A stretch of 35,341 bases of DNA from an uncultured Verrucomicrobiota bacterium (lineage in GTDB: Bacteria > Verrucomicrobiota > Verrucomicrobiia > Limisphaerales > AAA164-E04): NCBI GenBank assembly GCA_913061285.1, contig CAJXVR010000034.1:1-35341 (forward strand). Reading direction: 5' to 3'. Position 1 is the stretch's first letter. Every line of letters starts with the position of its first letter. The translations under genes and the position numbers were made by a program. This document shows, piece by piece, positions 13,401-28,857 of this stretch. The notes below the pieces were generated by a model. It was not told the origin of the DNA. It worked only from the letters and a program-made list of their open reading frames with translations, and ran no database searches.

Positions 13401-15695
13401 ATGTCTGAGCAAGGAGTCAACGTCAAAGAATTAGGACAACTTTTCTTGGAAAAGTATCCAATCATTGTCTTGGCGACAATTATTGCCACGGCCGTCGGAT
13501 TCCAAAAATCAAAGAATATCGTTGAGCGATATAGCGCCAAGGCGACCATTCAAGTCGACTACCAGCAGTCCAGTGTTCTCTCAGACATCGAACAGGTCAA
13601 CAACCAAGACTTCAGTGATTATGACGTCCTCAATACGATTGTAGAGACGATCAGCAACACAAAGCTGATGCGAGAGGTCATTATCGATCACGATCTCATC
13701 AACAGAGAAGAATTTGCTGGGAAAGATGCGGGTTCGGGTTCAATCGACCGCTTGGCAAGGTCACTGGCTTTTGCCACTACGGCAACCCTTAGAGACGAAA
13801 CACGCCTTATCGATCTCAAGATTGAAAACAACGACGGTCCCCTCGCCCGGGATCTTATTAATTGGATTGCAGAAGGCTTTATCAAGCAACACAAACACCG
13901 GAGGCTCAGCAACAATCAATTAGCAACTGATGTCCTGAACGAAGAAGCAGAGCGACTGCAACTTAGGCTTAAGAACGCCGAACTGGCGCTAATCGAGTTT
14001 AGAAGATCCTCTACTTTAGTGGTTTCACTTCAAGACCGAACAGACCTCCTTGCCTCTCTAATCGCTACTCGAACAGAATCGCTCAACGAAATCACGGCAC
14101 AGATTTCGCTTTTAGAGAGTGACCTAAACCTAATCAAGAGCTACGGGCCAAAACCGACACATGAACAACTTCGACTGGTTCCTGGAATCTCCAATAACCA
14201 GCTCATTCAAGATAAGTATGCCGAAGTTAAGTCTCAAGAAGGACTCGTTAACAGTCTAAAGAGTCGTTACAAAGACCAGCATCCGAGAGTCAGGCTTGAA
14301 AATCGCAACCTCAAAGACATGGAGTCCGCTTTCAATCGCGCTTTGGAAGATGCTCCATTCATTTTGGAAGCTTCCTTAAGCAAACTGAAGAGCCAGGAGG
14401 CGAGCCTCATCTCTCAAGTCAAAGATGCGGAAACAGAATCGCTAGATCTCTCAGGAAAAGCTGTCGAGTACAACGTTCTGCAAAGAGAAGTTGAAGCAAC
14501 AAAGGTTCTCTACGAATCTGTTCTCAATAGAATTAAGGAAATTGATCTCACCTCAGGGCTTCAGGATGAGGTTATCTCTGTTGTTGAAGAATGCCACGCA
14601 GCTAGGGATATCACTCCTGATAGCGAGTCAACCGTCATCTTGGGGGCCTTCTTTGGAATGTTTCTCGGAATGGGGGTTATTTATCTGCTTCACATGCTAG
14701 ATACGACGCTCAAATCGATTGATCAGGCAGAACAATCTCTTGAATTGCCTGCGTTGGGAGCAATCCCTGGCAGCGAACCTAAGAACCGCCTTGCCAAGTC
14801 CCGACTCGTACTACTCTCAGACCCGAGTTCTTCTTGCGCTGAAGCCTTCCGCTCCCTTCGAGCGAACATTGAAAGTCTCGGCTCTCGAGACAAAAAGGTA
14901 ACCCTCTTTACAAGCTCAATGCCGGCGGAGGGCAAGACCTTTGCCTGCATCAACTACGCCATCACCCTCGCGCAACGTGGATTGAAAACGATTGTCATTG
15001 ATCTCGACCTGAGACATCCGAGTGTCGGGGGTGACTTTTCGTTTACTGGAAATAAACTCAATGTTGGGGACATTCTTCAAGATCCTCGGGCATTTAGCCA
15101 GTTTTCTGAGGAAGCATTAGAAAACCCGACAGAAAATCTCTACGTCATGCCAGTCGGCGCACAGTTGCAGAATCCTGCAGAAAAGCTGGCTAGCGAGCCA
15201 ATTACCAACCTTATCCGACGAGCAACCGACCAATTCGATCGGGTTATCATCGATTCTGCCCCTCTCAATCCAGTTGGAGATACACTTTCTATCGTTCAAC
15301 TCGTCGATGTAATTTGTATGGTTATTCGATGTAAGAAAACCCCTATTCGCACGATTCAACGATCACTGGAAACGCTTCGTCGCTTCAACAGCCCTGCATC
15401 TGGTGTTATTCTCAACTTTGTTCCAGCTAAAAAGAACTTAGGCAACTATTACTACTACGGCGGTAGCAATTCGCCCTATGAAGGAGTCAATCACTATCAA
15501 GCCAAACCAGTAGATCAGGTGGCGCCTACTAAGGCTCCAACAAGTGCGGCAGCAAGACCGATAGCCGCACGTTCTGGCGAGCTTGAAGACTCATCAACGA
15601 CTCCCCCTCCGAGACATCGTCGTCGTCGTATTCGCCGCCCCGACGTGCAACCGGAAGCAGAAGTTGAAACCAGGGCAAACTTACCAACGGCATAG
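13401..15695 (+). CDS. Polysaccharide co-polymerase / BY-type tyrosine autokinase, Wzc/GumC-type
   Basis: This is a 764-aa inner-membrane protein. The Wzz domain (about residues 1-100) has a first hydrophobic segment near 18-35. Then come long periplasmic coiled coils, with the GumC-like SLKSRYKDQHPRV at about 290, and a second membrane segment (VILGAFFGMFLGMGVIYLL, about 413-431). The cytoplasmic kinase has Walker A SSMPAEGKT (about 504-512), Walker A' VIDLDLRHP (about 532-540) and Walker B VIIDSAP (about 615-621). A tyrosine cluster, NYYYYGG (about 682), is the expected autophosphorylation site. An unusual tail of about 65 residues follows, rich in Pro and Ala with an Arg run (RHRRRRIRR). 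It controls chain length and export together with the Wza-like protein, cycling with tyrosine phosphorylation. Confidence 0.9.
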   Translation: MSEQGVNVKELGQLFLEKYPIIVLATIIATAVGFQKSKNIVERYSAKATIQVDYQQSSVLSDIEQVNNQDFSDYDVLNTIVETISNTKLMREVIIDHDLINREEFAGKDAGSGSIDRLARSLAFATTATLRDETRLIDLKIENNDGPLARDLINWIAEGFIKQHKHRRLSNNQLATDVLNEEAERLQLRLKNAELALIEFRRSSTLVVSLQDRTDLLASLIATRTESLNEITAQISLLESDLNLIKSYGPKPTHEQLRLVPGISNNQLIQDKYAEVKSQEGLVNSLKSRYKDQHPRVRLENRNLKDMESAFNRALEDAPFILEASLSKLKSQEASLISQVKDAETESLDLSGKAVEYNVLQREVEATKVLYESVLNRIKEIDLTSGLQDEVISVVEECHAARDITPDSESTVILGAFFGMFLGMGVIYLLHMLDTTLKSIDQAEQSLELPALGAIPGSEPKNRLAKSRLVLLSDPSSSCAEAFRSLRANIESLGSRDKKVTLFTSSMPAEGKTFACINYAITLAQRGLKTIVIDLDLRHPSVGGDFSFTGNKLNVGDILQDPRAFSQFSEEALENPTENLYVMPVGAQLQNPAEKLASEPITNLIRRATDQFDRVIIDSAPLNPVGDTLSIVQLVDVICMVIRCKKTPIRTIQRSLETLRRFNSPASGVILNFVPAKKNLGNYYYYGGSNSPYEGVNHYQAKPVDQVAPTKAPTSAAARPIAARSGELEDSSTTPPPRHRRRRIRRPDVQPEAEVETRANLPTA

Positions 15696-15728
15696 CGGCC
15701 ACCTCCTCTGCAAGGAAACGGGCCTTCC

Positions 15729-16658
15729 TTGCTAGTCGTTATCAGTTCTTCACGACCCCCTCTCCGTCCAAGACTCACTGAGTTGTTACAAGGCGTGCGA
15801 TCAGTTTTTTCCTCAGAATCAATATTACCAATTCCCAGCGGGCTCAAATTTGAGTGGATCAGACAGCGCCCAGGGGAAGACGGAGGGGAATTCCTGCTCA
15901 TTGGTAAAAGCGAAAGATACTACCTTGTACGCTACGCTGGTATCGCCGATTATATTATTGATCTAGAAGCCGGTTCAATCAACTGGAGTCCCCATTCGTC
16001 AAGTGAGGAAGATTCAGATTCCGGATTTCATCTTGGCAAAAACCAGGTCATCCCGATGATCCTCTCCACCCAAAACCAACTGGTTCTCCACGCCAGCGCC
16101 GTCCGCTTGCCTTCTGGAGCAGCAATCGCATTCTCAGGCCCATCTGGATTTGGGAAATCGACACTGGCAAACGCGATTGCAAGAAAACCTGACGTCGAAC
16201 ACTTTGCGGACGATTGGATAACCGTCTCTCAAAGTTCAGAGTCCGCGGAGGCGTCTGCATACGAGGAAGAGGTCATTTCCGCGATGGAGCAACCAATCGA
16301 ACCGTGCGAACCTTCCCCGGTGTCTGAAGGATCAAGCAGTCTCAAATTCAGCATCGATGATCTGGCGGCGTTCAAATTGCCACACTGCCCTCTCGAACGA
16401 ATCTATCTCATCAGCCCTGAAACTTACGGTGGCAGGATTACAACAAGGCCTATGAAAGCGAAAGAAGCCTACGTTTCCCTAGCACGCAACCTCTTTCGAC
16501 TCGATTCAACCGATCGAAACCATCTTGCCAAGGAAGTGAAATTGCTCAGCTTGCTACTCAATAAGATACCGATATTCTCGCTTTCCTATCCTCGACGTAA
16601 ACGAGACATACCAGCACTCGTTCGTCACATTCTTGACGATCAACCTCAAGACAACTAG
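15729..16658 (+). CDS. HprK-like P-loop serine kinase (RiPP/lasso-associated type)
   Basis: This is a 309-aa protein whose core matches HPr-kinase-like enzymes of RiPP clusters: LVLHASAVRLPSG (about 119-131), the P-loop GPSGFGKST (about 137-145) and FADDW (about 159-163), the counterpart of the ADD that follows the P-loop in HprK. It lacks the N-terminal HprK domain that senses metabolites, so HPr is an unlikely substrate. Homologues such as PadeK and ThcoK phosphorylate the C-terminal Ser of lasso precursors (established knowledge), and the RiPP-like peptide at 27413 ends in Ser. An acidic, Ser/Glu-rich insertion (about 167-205) follows the DD motif. The start is TTG at 15729. It lies 33 bases after wzc and is followed at once by the methyltransferase, so it probably belongs to the same transcript. 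Confidence 0.72.
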   Translation: MLVVISSSRPPLRPRLTELLQGVRSVFSSESILPIPSGLKFEWIRQRPGEDGGEFLLIGKSERYYLVRYAGIADYIIDLEAGSINWSPHSSSEEDSDSGFHLGKNQVIPMILSTQNQLVLHASAVRLPSGAAIAFSGPSGFGKSTLANAIARKPDVEHFADDWITVSQSSESAEASAYEEEVISAMEQPIEPCEPSPVSEGSSSLKFSIDDLAAFKLPHCPLERIYLISPETYGGRITTRPMKAKEAYVSLARNLFRLDSTDRNHLAKEVKLLSLLLNKIPIFSLSYPRRKRDIPALVRHILDDQPQDN

Positions 16659-16660
16659 CT

Positions 16661-17815
16661 ATGGCCTACACCCCTCACGACTACGCATCAATGCTTGGTG
16701 ACAAAGGTCGTATGAACGCTTATTCAGCGGCACTGAAGCGTGCAATCAATCCAGATTCCGTCGTCCTTGACCTAGGAACGGGAACGGGATACTTCGCCGT
16801 ACTCTCTTGCCTCCTCGGAGCGAAGAAGGTCTATGCAATCGAACCAAACCCCGCGATTTGTATCGGGGAACAGCTCGCCGCAGACAATGGCGTTGGCAAG
16901 CAAATTACCTGGTTCGAAGACTACTCAAGCAACGTGACTCTACCCGAACAGGTCGACATCATCGTCTCAGATCTCCGGGGATTACTCCCACAAAACGAAG
17001 GCAATCTCCCAGCCATCAAAGACGCCCGGACCCGATTCCTAAAACCGAACGGAATACTCCTTCCCCAACGAGACAAACTTTGGATTGCGGTAGCATCGGA
17101 CGAAGAAATCTACAAGCAAATCAAGCAGCCTTGGCTACCGATCGAATTCCCAGAGTTCGATCTTTCCTCTTTTGAAGCAGCACACTCACACACCTATGTT
17201 TCACGTGAGGCACGAAGCGCTAACCTCCTTTCAAAAGCATCCCTGTGGACTGAAATAGAATACGCTACGGCCACAACAATGAATCATCGTCAGCAACTCG
17301 ATTTCCCAATCAAGAAGGACGGAACGGGCCACGGTATTTACGTTTGGTTCGAAACACACATCGATTCTGAATCAAGCTACTCATTCGGTCCCGACGTCCC
17401 GATGACCGTCTACGGCTGCGCTTTTTTCCCCTGGAAACGACCGCTCGAACTGAAACAAGACGACAGGGTGTCAATCGATCTTGCCGTCCATCTTGGAGCC
17501 GAAGGATACGACTGGACTTGGAACACAACCTTCGCACCCGTCAGCACGGAGCGAACAGGCGAGTCATTTCAACAGTCCACCTTCTTTGCCCCTTCGTCAT
17601 TAAAGAAAACTGAAATAGCAAAGCGCTCTCACCGATTCAAACCAAGGTGTAAAGAGCGAGGTAGTGTGGCAATTCAAGCTCTGAGCTTGATGAATCAAGA
17701 AAGGACGATCGAAGAAATCGCTCGTATCCTGAGCACCGAGTTTCCTTCGATCAAGAAATCTCCCGAAGAATGGATCAACATGGTCGCTTCACTCTCTCAA
17801 GAATTCGCCGACTAG
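16661..17815 (+). CDS. PRMT-like SAM methyltransferase with C-terminal PqqD/RRE-like tail
   Basis: This is a 384-aa protein. The class I SAM-binding motif VLDLGTGTGYFAVL (about residues 35-48) and the acidic AIEP loop are clear. The order of motifs (IIVSDLRGLLPQNEGNL, then FLKPNGILLP, then a beta-barrel-like half) resembles protein arginine methyltransferases, though the first position of the double-E loop reads D. The last 55-60 residues (SVAIQALSLMNQERTIEEIARIL onward) have the small winged-helix pattern of PqqD or RRE leader-binding domains. This would make it a self-guiding modification enzyme for a leader-bearing peptide. The gene begins 3 bases after the kinase stop and ends 8 bases before the ABC exporter. 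The methyltransferase is firm, the PRMT relation moderate, and the RRE assignment an inference from pattern. Confidence 0.72.
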   Translation: MAYTPHDYASMLGDKGRMNAYSAALKRAINPDSVVLDLGTGTGYFAVLSCLLGAKKVYAIEPNPAICIGEQLAADNGVGKQITWFEDYSSNVTLPEQVDIIVSDLRGLLPQNEGNLPAIKDARTRFLKPNGILLPQRDKLWIAVASDEEIYKQIKQPWLPIEFPEFDLSSFEAAHSHTYVSREARSANLLSKASLWTEIEYATATTMNHRQQLDFPIKKDGTGHGIYVWFETHIDSESSYSFGPDVPMTVYGCAFFPWKRPLELKQDDRVSIDLAVHLGAEGYDWTWNTTFAPVSTERTGESFQQSTFFAPSSLKKTEIAKRSHRFKPRCKERGSVAIQALSLMNQERTIEEIARILSTEFPSIKKSPEEWINMVASLSQEFAD

Positions 17816-17822
17816 TCCCACC

Positions 17823-19634
17823 TTGCCCCCCCATTACACAGCCGTGGAAAACATCCCCCGATTCCATACGCTGATATCCCATACTAAGTGCTTGTTCCGA
17901 ACATGGAATCTAGTCCATTCTTTCGCATCCACTTGGCTCGTCGGACTTGGCTTCACGACGCTTGCTGCCAGTCTCATCCCCCTCGCCTACGTCTACCTCA
18001 CGAAGGAAGTCGTTGACACCTTTGCAACTCTTCAATCCTCACCGAACGACTCCCTACCTCGATTCGCTCTACTGATCGGAATTCTGGTCGCAATCATAAT
18101 CACCTCACAGATTCTTGATGCCGTGTCAAACTGGATCACAATGGGATTTTCTGATGTCATCTCAGACAATATACAGACACAGATTCACCACCTCTCGATC
18201 AGAGCTGAATTCAAATTCTTCGAAATCCCTTCATTCCAAGACCAACTATACCATGCGACAGCTGGAGCCGAGGACCAGTTTTCATCGACCATCGACAATT
18301 TATTTACCTTGTTGAGAAACGCAGTCACGCTTCTAGCAATGATCACCGTAATCGCTGGTTTCAGTTTATGGCTCCCGCTCATCCTCATTGTAGCATCCGT
18401 CCCCACAATGTTCCTCATAATGGCACAGAACCGAAAAGGCTATGAACTCCAGAAAGCACTCGTCCCTTCCGAGAGGAAAGCCGACTACTACGACTGGCTG
18501 ATTCAGTCGAGCGACGCGGCTGCCGAAATCCGAACGTTTGGCCTTGGCGACCTATTCGCGGGCCGCTATCAACGCATTCGCTCAAGAGTTCGAACCAAAC
18601 AGTTGGATCTTGAGAAACGACATCTCATCCACAGATTTGGCTCTCATCTTTTCGGGCTCACAATCGTTGGAGGGGCCATGTCGTTCGTTATCATGAGGGC
18701 AGTCTCAGGGCAAGCAACGATGGGAGACGTTGCTATGTTCTATCGCACTATAAAATACTCTCAGGACCTCGGCACCGAGTTTGTCAAAGGACTTGCCAGT
18801 CTTCACAAGAATGCTGTTTTTCTCAACGAGTTCTATCAGTTCATCGACACAGACCATACCTCTCCAGAAGTATCGGATCCAGTGTCGTTTCCCGAGAGGC
18901 TCCAGCGAGGCATCAAATTCCAAGACGTCACGTTTTCGTATCCTGGCACCGAGAAACAAGTATTAAAGCAGCTCAATCTTTCTATTCCTGCGGGTAAAAT
19001 GACAGCAATTCTGGGTCCCAACGGATCAGGAAAAAGCACAGTGTTAAAGCTCATCGCGAAGCTCTACCGCGACTACGAAGGAAGCATTCTCATCGATGAC
19101 GAGAATCTCCACCAGATATCGGATTTATCGATGAAGAAGGGCTCGTCATTTCTCTTCCAAGACCCGATGGAATATCATTTTTCGGCACAAGAAAACATTA
19201 CACTGAGCGAAGAATCCCCACCACCACGGTCTGACAAGATTGGGGATGCCACGAAGGCTGCAGCTGCTGGCACTATCATAGAGAAGCTGCCAAACAAGGA
19301 GCAAACGCTACTGGGCAAGTGGTTTCAGGAAGGCTATGAACTGAGCGGAGGAGAATGGCACCGAATTGCTACAGCCAGAACCCTCTACGGAAAAAAACAA
19401 CTTGTTGTCATGGACGAACCAACAAGTTCGCTAGATCCCTGGGCTGAAATTAACTGGACGAAGAGAATTCGCAAGCACCTCACCGATCATACCGTCGTCA
19501 TTATCACCCATCGAGTATCCGTAGCGCAACTAGCCGATCACATTTGCGTAATGGAGAACGGTCAGTTGGCCGAACAAGGCAGCCACGAGGAACTCATGGA
19601 ACATCAGGGAACCTACGCCTGTATTAACACCTGA
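17823..19634 (+). CDS. ABC exporter half-transporter (membrane domain fused to ATPase)
   Basis: This is a 603-aa type IV ABC exporter. The N-terminal membrane domain (about residues 35-330) has hydrophobic segments at about 38-60, 80-100 and 160-195. The nucleotide-binding domain shows Walker A GPNGSGKST (about 398-406), a Q-loop FLFQDP, the signature ELSGGEWHRIATA, Walker B LVVMDEPTSSLDP and the H-loop IITHR. No N-terminal C39 peptidase domain is present, so it does not itself cleave leaders. Exporters of this layout (McjD type) secrete lasso and other RiPPs. Lipid or glycan export is the alternative, but the locus is tied to the kinase and methyltransferase. The start is TTG at 17823 or, 7 codons later, GTG at 17844. 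It converges with the nucleotidyltransferase after 6 bases. Confidence 0.85.
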   Translation: MPPHYTAVENIPRFHTLISHTKCLFRTWNLVHSFASTWLVGLGFTTLAASLIPLAYVYLTKEVVDTFATLQSSPNDSLPRFALLIGILVAIIITSQILDAVSNWITMGFSDVISDNIQTQIHHLSIRAEFKFFEIPSFQDQLYHATAGAEDQFSSTIDNLFTLLRNAVTLLAMITVIAGFSLWLPLILIVASVPTMFLIMAQNRKGYELQKALVPSERKADYYDWLIQSSDAAAEIRTFGLGDLFAGRYQRIRSRVRTKQLDLEKRHLIHRFGSHLFGLTIVGGAMSFVIMRAVSGQATMGDVAMFYRTIKYSQDLGTEFVKGLASLHKNAVFLNEFYQFIDTDHTSPEVSDPVSFPERLQRGIKFQDVTFSYPGTEKQVLKQLNLSIPAGKMTAILGPNGSGKSTVLKLIAKLYRDYEGSILIDDENLHQISDLSMKKGSSFLFQDPMEYHFSAQENITLSEESPPPRSDKIGDATKAAAAGTIIEKLPNKEQTLLGKWFQEGYELSGGEWHRIATARTLYGKKQLVVMDEPTSSLDPWAEINWTKRIRKHLTDHTVVIITHRVSVAQLADHICVMENGQLAEQGSHEELMEHQGTYACINT

Positions 19635-19640
19635 CGGCAT

Positions 19641-20762
19641 TCAATCTCTATTTCCAAAGATCTTAAGCCATCGCTTCAAGTAAAGGCTAAGCAACGGCAA
19701 ACTTCGGCTATCGTCAAACTGAGCCCGCATGTAGTCGGGACGCGGAAAAACAAATAACAACAAAGCCTTTACTCGGAGCTTCACCGTCGGCAACGACCGA
19801 ATCCCAACAAGTAGATCCTTCCGTCGATCTCTTCCCTCCTTCAGATAATAAGAGGAGGCTTCAGAGCGATTTTGATACCAGGCATCGGCCCAAGCAGAAG
19901 CGCCCTGAGGAATCGATCCCGGAACAATCCGTTTCAATTCCTGAATCTCGCTTGCCACAATAGCCCGACAGGCAGCCGTTTCTGCTAACGAAACGACCGA
20001 GGACCAATCAGAATCACTCATTCGTTTACTGAGTAGCAGCAAGTCATAAAACCATAGAAATCTGCGATCATGTTCCAAGTGCCCCACCCGATGCAGCGAA
20101 GCGAGAACAAAGGCTTCAGGGATTTTTGGAACTCGAAAGGAGTGCTTTCCGATTCTCACTCGGTCGCAACGGGACTCGAAATACTCAAATCCAAACGGCA
20201 CCAGTAGATGCCGGTTGTTAGCTTCGACGTGAAATTCAAAGACGTGTTCCATCCCACCAAGGCCGGTCCGACAAAACTGTTTCTGCTGCGAAACCGTACC
20301 AAACATCAGATCAGGGGTTTCCTCATATCCGAGCGCAAGCATCTTCTCCGAGACCAAAGGCAGAAATGCTGCATTGATAAGAATATCGGTATCAGAACTC
20401 GTTCGATGGTGAGGTCGTCGATAGATCGTAAATGAGAACGGTATTCCCTTGAGAAGCAAGCAATCAACGCCACTCTTTTGGAGCAGCGTCAGGACTCGTT
20501 CTATTTCCTGGGCACGCAATTCGAAACCAACGAAACGGGAACGATTGGCCTCCTTGAAACGTTTCACCACCGAAGCAGGCCAAAGCGATTCTTGATTCTT
20601 TTCCAGCAGACCGGCATAGAGAACCGGCTGCACTTCCATCTCCTCCGTCACCTGTAAGAACAGCGCCTCGTTCTCACCATCAAAGGAGGGCGCATGCGCC
20701 CCGTGAATCAAGCAATCCATGACGCAATCACGGATTTCGTTCTCGAGTTCTTTGTCGGCCAT
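19641..20762 (-). CDS. NTP_transf_5-type nucleotidyltransferase-family protein
   Basis: This is a 373-aa protein of the uncharacterised nucleotidyltransferase family (PF14907-like). The active-site pattern LLLKGIPFSFTIYRR (about residues 102-116), then SSDTDILI with paired Asp at 124 and 126, matches the LLKG...Y...R...DiDlLv signature. A helical second half ends in a basic tail. Members recur beside HprK-like kinases, PqqD proteins and lasso precursors (established association). Their chemistry is poorly defined, with nucleotidyl transfer to a peptide or small molecule assumed. It is the only gene of the cassette on the minus strand and converges on the ABC exporter with a 6-base gap, so it needs its own promoter. 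A short GCGATG/CATCGC dyad sits directly upstream of its ATG. Confidence 0.8.
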   Translation of the reverse strand: MADKELENEIRDCVMDCLIHGAHAPSFDGENEALFLQVTEEMEVQPVLYAGLLEKNQESLWPASVVKRFKEANRSRFVGFELRAQEIERVLTLLQKSGVDCLLLKGIPFSFTIYRRPHHRTSSDTDILINAAFLPLVSEKMLALGYEETPDLMFGTVSQQKQFCRTGLGGMEHVFEFHVEANNRHLLVPFGFEYFESRCDRVRIGKHSFRVPKIPEAFVLASLHRVGHLEHDRRFLWFYDLLLLSKRMSDSDWSSVVSLAETAACRAIVASEIQELKRIVPGSIPQGASAWADAWYQNRSEASSYYLKEGRDRRKDLLVGIRSLPTVKLRVKALLLFVFPRPDYMRAQFDDSRSLPLLSLYLKRWLKIFGNRD

Positions 20763-27412: not shown

Positions 27413-27592
27413 ATGAAGCGAATCTACACATCTCCGATTTTAGAGCACTACGGTCCAATCGCGAACTTTACAACCGGCGGAAGCACCAAAAAAACCGAGT
27501 GGATGCAAAAGAGCAGCATGAGCAGCATGGGCAACTCCAGTAGCAGCTGGTCCCAGAGCATGTCAAAAAAGAAAAACGTCGTTAAGTCTTAG
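27413..27592 (+). CDS. Lasso-type RiPP precursor peptide
   Basis: This is a 59-aa peptide gene. The start is fixed, since an in-frame TGA lies at 27398-27400 and the only following start is ATG 27413. The leader has Tyr5, Pro8, Leu10, Gly14 and Thr20, which is exactly the lasso leader motif YxxPxLxxxGxxxxxT with the family's spacing (positions -17, -14, -12, -8 and -2 if cleavage follows Thr21). The core would be Gly22 to Ser59: Gly1, Glu29 at core position 8 (compatible with a Gly1-Glu8 macrolactam), a Ser/Met-rich middle (11 Ser and 4 Met in 34-51), Trp30 and Trp46, a KKK run and a C-terminal Ser. It has no Cys, so lanthionine or thioether chemistry is excluded. A 38-residue core is long for a lasso peptide. 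A hairpin follows the stop. The precursor call is firm, the final structure unknown. Confidence 0.85.
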   Translation: MKRIYTSPILEHYGPIANFTTGGSTKKTEWMQKSSMSSMGNSSSSWSQSMSKKKNVVKS

Positions 27593-27633: not shown

Positions 27634-28857
27634 TTGAGAACCCTATTAAGCATTCTCATCCCCCTACTCGCTAACTCGGTCCTTGCTTCAAGGATCGATT
27701 CGGAACTCATATTCCCTCTTGAATCGTGGCACAACCATGGTTCGTGCATCGTCCAAGCCCCAAACGGAGATTTGCTCGTCTGCTGGTTTCACGGTTCAGG
27801 TGAACGAAAATCTGATGACGTCGTCATCTTAGGCGCCAGAAAGCCTCAAGGATCAGAAGTTTGGAGCCCCCCTTTTCTGCTCGCTGATACCCCTGGCTAC
27901 CCTGACACCAACTGCTGCATGCTCATCGATTCAAAGGAGCGCCTCTGGCTCCTCTGGCCGACCATTCAAGCGAATCTCTAGGAGAGCGCACTGATGAACT
28001 ATAAGATTTCATCGGATTACCAAACACCAGAAGCCGCCCCAAAGTGGCAGATAGAGAAAGTACTCCACGTCAAACCTGGTCCGGCATTTTCCGAACTGGT
28101 TCGAACAAAGACAGCCGACTACCTGAGTCATAAACAAATCGCACCGGGAAGCATCGAGTGGGCAGCAAACAATTTCCAACAGGCCGACGACAAGCTAACC
28201 CGACGACTAGGATGGTTCACACGCGCCCATCCCTACGTTACCAACGAAGGGAGGATGCTAGTGGGGCTTTACTCGGACGGGTTTTCATTCTCATTGGTCG
28301 CGTTCACCGATGACCTCGGAAAGTCTTGGAACGTTAGCGAGCCAATCGTTGGCGGCGGAAATATCCAGCCGAGCTTTGCCCAAGCTAGCAATGGATCGAT
28401 CGTCGCCTATATGCGTGACAATGGACCTGCTCCGAAACGAGTTCACGTTTCCGAATCGGCCGACCAGGGCGAAACTTGGTCAATGGTCTACGATCATCCA
28501 GAACTAGCAAACCCCGGTGCCGGACTCGAGTTGATGAAACTCAACGATGGTCGATTCTTAACCATCTACAATGATACCGAGAGTGGCCGCCACCGTTTGG
28601 CTGTTTCCATTTCAAATGACGAAGGGCAGAGCTACCCCGTCACTCGCTATCTAGAAAACCGTAACGAGAGTGAAGGTGCTTTCCATTATCCATCCATCAT
28701 CCAAGGAAAGGATGGCATGCTCCACGCGACCTATAGCTATTTCGTCCCTGCAGCCAACGGCAAGGGCCAGGTGAAATCGATCAAATACGCCTCTTTTGAC
28801 ACTGATTGGATCGAGTCCGGCACTTCTGAGAGCTCTAAAAAAGAACGATCTCATTGA
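27634..28857 (+). pseudogene. Sialidase-like BNR-repeat protein interrupted by one TAG
   Basis: This is a gene of about 407 codons for a secreted exo-sialidase-type beta-propeller, split by TAG at 27979-27981 with no frame change. The first part has a TTG start, a signal peptide (LLSILIPLLANSVLA) and then SWHNHGSCIVQAPNGDLLVCWFHG. The second has the Asp boxes FTDDLGKSW and SADQGETW and a weaker SNDEGQSY. Around the stop the reading is IQANL-stop-ESALMNYKISSDY. Homologues commonly have Trp there, and TGG to TAG is one G-to-A change. The second half could begin again at ATG 27994, but it would lack a signal peptide and the first propeller blade. It is either a recent pseudogene or a base-call error. 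The product would act outside the cytoplasm on glycans. Confidence 0.78.

Follow-up and report, generated by a model that had tools for sequence, protein, structure and literature searches.

An uncultured Verrucomicrobiota bacterium very probably encodes, in a 59-codon open reading frame, the precursor of a lasso peptide that would be matured by a B1-B2-C operon on a different contig of its assembly, and tailored and exported by a gene module in the window (the whole stretch of DNA analysed, 35,341 nucleotides), with one such set of genes serving four precursors. The initial annotation had read the frame as a lasso-type RiPP precursor, and this proposal is supported by a ten-member precursor family in which the ring residues Gly1 and Glu8 of the core are invariant, by a relative that lies within a complete lasso cluster in another genome (G002), by the presence of B1-B2-C in the same genome, by a phyletic pattern in which precursor and enzymes match, and by decayed copies of B1 and C in a congener otherwise lacking the pathway.

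The frame, at positions 27413..27592 of the forward strand, translates to MKRIYTSPILEHYGPIANFTTGGSTKKTEWMQKSSMSSMGNSSSSWSQSMSKKKNVVKS, 59 amino acids. As it opens just four codons upstream of the ATG there is one possible start, in agreement with the initial annotation. The 59-codon frame is a real gene; a chance open reading frame is ruled out by the existence of homologues and by a shuffled-window test, in which the leader pattern alone arose at a rate of 0.027 per shuffled window, and no match was seen in 300 shuffled windows once the core Gly and an acidic eighth core residue were also required. A simple scan detected no promoter-like signal for the precursor, although such scans cover this phylum poorly, and no clear ribosome-binding site is visible. 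The upstream regions of the six genus-level precursors contain no common motif except the overlap of a tandem pair, and a shared promoter is thus without support. The next gene, which encodes a BNR-repeat protein (27634-28857), is interrupted by an in-frame stop codon (TAG, 27979-27981), reflecting either a recent nonsense change or an assembly error; its orthologue in a congener is open over 421 amino acids (L097 7722-8987).

The best paralogue of the precursor within its own assembly (G000) was found with E=2.5e-18 and two further paralogues are present there, the three being distributed as a tandem pair on contig C19 and a single copy on C152. Six additional relatives occur in four genomes of the same family, bringing the total to 10 precursors in 5 genomes: two in tandem in the congener G006 and, recovered by a profile and by direct reading, four in the sister genus (one each in G002 and G003, two in G004). 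Alignment of all 10 revealed exactly nine invariant columns: Y5, P8, L10, G14, T20, G22, G23, S24 and E29. The first five are the leader positions that had been recognized, at lasso-family spacing, in the window sequence, and all 10 precursors thus display the Tyr-Pro-Leu-Gly pattern and the penultimate leader Thr, the latter described for lasso precursors (PMC10368454). If cleavage leaves T20 penultimate in the leader (residues 1-21, 27413..27475), then G22 becomes the new N-terminus, and counting from it E29 is number 8, where lasso cores have their ring acceptor. A Gly at core position 1 with an acidic residue at position 7, 8 or 9 is what a lasso core requires, given rings of 7-9 residues (PMC5067487), and G22 and E29 occupy these sites in 10/10 precursors. 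Taken singly, no other feature points to a lasso core as strongly as E29, which the initial annotation did not mention.

The predicted macrolactam ring, GGSTKKTE (G22-E29, 27476..27499), is followed by a variable middle rich in Ser, Met and Gly (27500..27553) and by a conserved C-terminal segment of 12 residues, QSMSKKKNVVKS (27554..27589), whose final Ser is a candidate kinase site. The composition previously described for the core holds with respect to 11 Ser within residues 34-51, two Trp, KKK, the lack of Cys and the C-terminal Ser; the interval contains three Met, however, rather than four, the fourth being M31. The C-termini define subtypes: NVVKS in the window precursor and C19a; NTQMC or NTQRC together with a second Cys in C19b, the C152 precursor and both G006 precursors; and, in the sister genus, tails that are short and basic. 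The final residue is Ser in two of the four G000 precursors and Cys in the other two, and Pro or Thr in the sister genus.

Among NCBIfam models the best match of the precursor was lasso_cyano NF033528 (E=0.0029, 17.6 bits, below the cut-off of 33). No lasso-leader model matched above its curated cut-off, which is a property of the models and not of the class. The search with NF033521 that had been recommended gave no match in the genome at E<=0.001, a result of little weight as the control matched nowhere. No match was obtained in the plasmid collection, and a class-wide search identified no precursor outside this family save one weak leader match. A genome from another family of the order, G123, contains three scattered precursors (L061 8670-8972; L062 8130-8435 and 8636-8941) with a lasso-like leader and unusually long conserved cores of about 80 residues, and its B1-B2-C genes lie on a different contig (L063).

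An absence of homologues, or equal synonymous and nonsynonymous change in the leader, had been named as grounds for abandoning the lasso assignment. Homologues exist, and between the window precursor and its nearest paralogue, C19a, leader change is mostly synonymous per site (pS 0.83 versus pN 0.24, on small counts and with synonymous sites near saturation). On similarly small counts, the ring codons together with W30 differ by five synonymous and no nonsynonymous changes, the last 12 codons by three synonymous and one nonsynonymous (11/12 residues identical), and the middle of the core has a pN of 0.31. The synonymous bias indicates that leader, ring and tail are under purifying selection, with the Ser/Met/Gly-rich middle freer. 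The expectation of a conserved leader and a variable core was thus correct for the leader and the middle, but not for the ring and the C-terminal 12 residues, which are also conserved.

The genes that define a lasso pathway, B1 (RRE), B2 (protease) and C (cyclase), form an operon on contig C159 of G000. Its B2, the only one found in G000, matches NF033537 lasso_biosyn_B2 at 67.9 bits (cut-off 33), B1 has a PqqD match, and C has the lasso cyclase model NF033535 as its best match, below the cut-off of that model. No precursor lies on C159 beside B1-B2-C, and no biosynthetic gene occurs within about 6.6 kb of the window precursor; the four precursors of G000 are located on three contigs (C19, C34 and C152) of a fragmented assembly (570 contigs, 89% complete). 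Clustering of precursor with B1-B2-C, which is usual for the class but not defining, is absent from G000 and G006 and present in the homologous locus of G002, where wzc-precursor-hprK-ABC-NTP_transf_5-PqqD-B2-AsnS-ABC form one contiguous stretch. In G004 the order is wzc-hprK-ABC-NTP_transf_5-B1-B2-C, and in G003 wzc-precursor-hprK-ABC-NTP_transf_5 runs to the contig end. On C34, C152 and C159, the genes flanking the precursor or B1-B2-C encode proteins with 71-80% identity to counterparts in congeners, indicating that these three contigs belong to the genus and are not stray contamination. The lasso cyclase of G006 is in two overlapping frames (L021 3077-4932), through assembly error or a recent frameshift.

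The window itself contains the accessory half of the system, wzc-hprK-methyltransferase-ABC-NTP_transf_5, at 13401-20762, 6.6 kb from the precursor. A Wzc-type chain-length determinant/tyrosine autokinase of an exopolysaccharide locus (13401..15695, forward strand) adjoins a candidate lasso-tailoring kinase that is HprK-like (15729..16658, forward) and whose orthologues lie within lasso loci (L022 and L059). Next are a PRMT-like methyltransferase (16661..17815, forward), found in the same place in G006 (49% identity) and missing from the sister-genus version of the module, a candidate exporter of the ABC transporter type (17823..19634, forward) and a PF14907 nucleotidyltransferase (NTP_transf_5), a candidate tailoring enzyme, on the reverse strand (19641..20762). 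A His-Lys-Asp-Asp motif is reported for lasso kinases that place a phosphate on the precursor's C-terminal Ser (PMC9266682); the PadeK-type motif is present here as H121, K143, D161 and D162, invariant among four orthologues, and the PDB holds no clear sequence relative of the HprK-like protein. The kinase, ABC and nucleotidyltransferase genes lie directly beside wzc in G000, G002, G003 and G004, an association with exopolysaccharide genes that recurs in two genera and is at most suggestive. It should be emphasized that the view of kinase/nucleotidyltransferase sets as lasso-specific is weakened by a second PqqD/HprK-like/nucleotidyltransferase-like set on C15 (L106 4041-5943, 16523-19501), which lacks B2 and C. 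A third PqqD-like protein of G000 (L105 4552-4857) is encoded beside large secreted proteins.

Five of the 11 family genomes carry the precursor, and the same five carry HprK and NTP_transf_5 (p=0.002, a rough value as the genomes are related). B2 is present in four of the five precursor-bearing genomes, the exception being the fragmented assembly of G003, and in none of the other six. Across the 293 genomes of the order, B2 was found in 6/7 precursor-bearing genomes versus 16/286 others (p=6e-7, again rough owing to relatedness). The congener G007 is without precursor, HprK, NTP_transf_5 and intact B2, and at the site syntenic to C159 it retains stop-riddled remnants of C and B1. The C152-syntenic site in G007 and G008 showed no relic of a precursor; at the locus syntenic to the window precursor, the G006 contig stops about 50 bases short of the BNR gene on its upstream side. 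On the simplest interpretation, these dispersed parts constitute one pathway, which was lost as a whole in G007.

From sequence we infer a cleavage site, ring formation, threading, tailoring, export and an action of the C159 enzymes on the window precursor, which we link to these enzymes through homology and co-occurrence. The PqqD-like B1 would bind the 21-residue leader via the conserved Y-P-L-G residues, B2 would cut after residue 21, leaving T20 penultimate, and the asparagine-synthetase-like cyclase would connect the N-terminal Gly22 with the Glu29 side chain. This would create a ring of 8 residues, and the rest of the core, long and rich in Ser and Met, would supply loop and tail. The HprK-like kinase may then tailor the peptide; Ser59 would be the likeliest phosphate site, and its phosphorylation is a guess, given that a final Ser is missing from most precursors. 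The window's nucleotidyltransferase and methyltransferase possibly tailor the peptide too, the neighbouring ABC transporter would export the product, and the same maturation set may serve all four precursors scattered over three contigs.

It is possible, if on balance doubtful, that the mature lasso is shorter than this scheme implies. The conserved basic C-terminus (SKKKNVVKS, or RNTQMC in the other subtype) would then act as a follower or recognition segment that is trimmed after lasso formation, yielding a product of ordinary length; on all points except length this agrees with the preferred explanation. The near identity of the last 12 residues between the window precursor and C19a, set against a varying middle, is consistent with trimming, as is the length of known lasso peptides, which reach 33 residues (PMC13352647). 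No protease gene was recognized in the module, however, and the Ser that characterized lasso kinases modify is the C-terminal one of the precursor (PMC9266682), a modification that would serve no purpose if this end were cut off. It could also be argued that the ring is closed between Gly22 and Glu29 but that the product is unthreaded or surface-bound, phosphorylated or glycosylated, and stays with the exopolysaccharide rather than being secreted as a free lasso. The position of the kinase-ABC-nucleotidyltransferase module next to wzc in four genomes, and a Ser-rich core whose middle tolerates change, are in keeping with this view, which we nevertheless consider unlikely: characterized B1-B2-C sets yield threaded lassos, and gene neighbourhood alone is no proof of shared function.

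That the window copy is a relic no longer in use is very improbable. It stands alone without a recognizable promoter, the next gene has an in-frame stop and the congener G007 lost the pathway; the ring, tail and leader, however, show a strong synonymous bias relative to the paralogue, the frame is open, and so are those of the kinase, ABC transporter, nucleotidyltransferase, B1, B2 and C in G000. The two further PqqD proteins and the second HprK/nucleotidyltransferase set in the genome bring to mind another kind of PqqD-dependent RiPP whose leader is related to that of lassos by descent. We regard this as extremely unlikely, since the invariant Glu8 suits a lasso cyclase and the G002 relative sits within a cluster containing lasso B2 and C; indeed, another RiPP class was rejected on invariant Glu8 and the lasso B2.

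The preferred explanation, a lasso precursor served in trans, has parallels in paeninodin (PadeK) and pseudomycoidin (PsmK, PsmN), lasso peptides with kinase/nucleotidyltransferase tailoring (PMC9266682). The split B1/B2 with C, the His-Lys-Asp-Asp kinase, the nucleotidyltransferase and the ABC transporter are shared, and the window peptide ends in Ser, as do their substrates. In contrast to these systems, the genes described here are spread over several contigs, with four precursors apparently dependent on one B1-B2-C; the cores in this genus are of 38-43 residues with an invariant GGSxxxxE ring, and most of the paralogues lack a final Ser; and a methyltransferase is added to a module that lies within an exopolysaccharide locus. 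The longest-tail lasso named in a 2026 review is pandonodin, with 33 residues overall (PMC13352647); the predicted core of the window peptide, at 38 residues, exceeds this and every other lasso peptide named there. The unusually long core is common to both, and the two-Cys paralogues might carry a disulfide in the tail, like class IV lassos, but the window peptide is without Cys, longer and Ser/Met-rich. The leader shares its residue pattern with the NF033521 and NF033528 families, although the window peptide reaches neither curated cut-off.

The lasso class is already known; what is unusual here is that scattered precursors are apparently served by one enzyme set; the length is unusual too, as is the constancy of ring and C-terminus. 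The open-access literature, covered mostly as titles and abstracts, contained no report of such a scattered-precursor lasso system. We propose tentatively, as a rather unlikely but broader interpretation, a dispersed multi-precursor system in which a variable segment rich in Ser and Met lies between a constant GGSxxxxE ring and a constant C-terminus, the peptides being matured in trans by one B1-B2-C, tailored by an exopolysaccharide-locus module, longer than any known lasso, and serving the matrix or cell surface rather than acting as antibiotics. If the full 38-43-residue cores mature, the known size range of lasso peptides would be extended. One enzyme set with four precursors that end in two different ways, a sister genus whose cluster is contiguous and a congener that lost the pathway also provide natural test material. 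Genome mining seeks lasso precursors beside B and C genes, and scattered ones such as these would escape; thus, lasso diversity may be undercounted.
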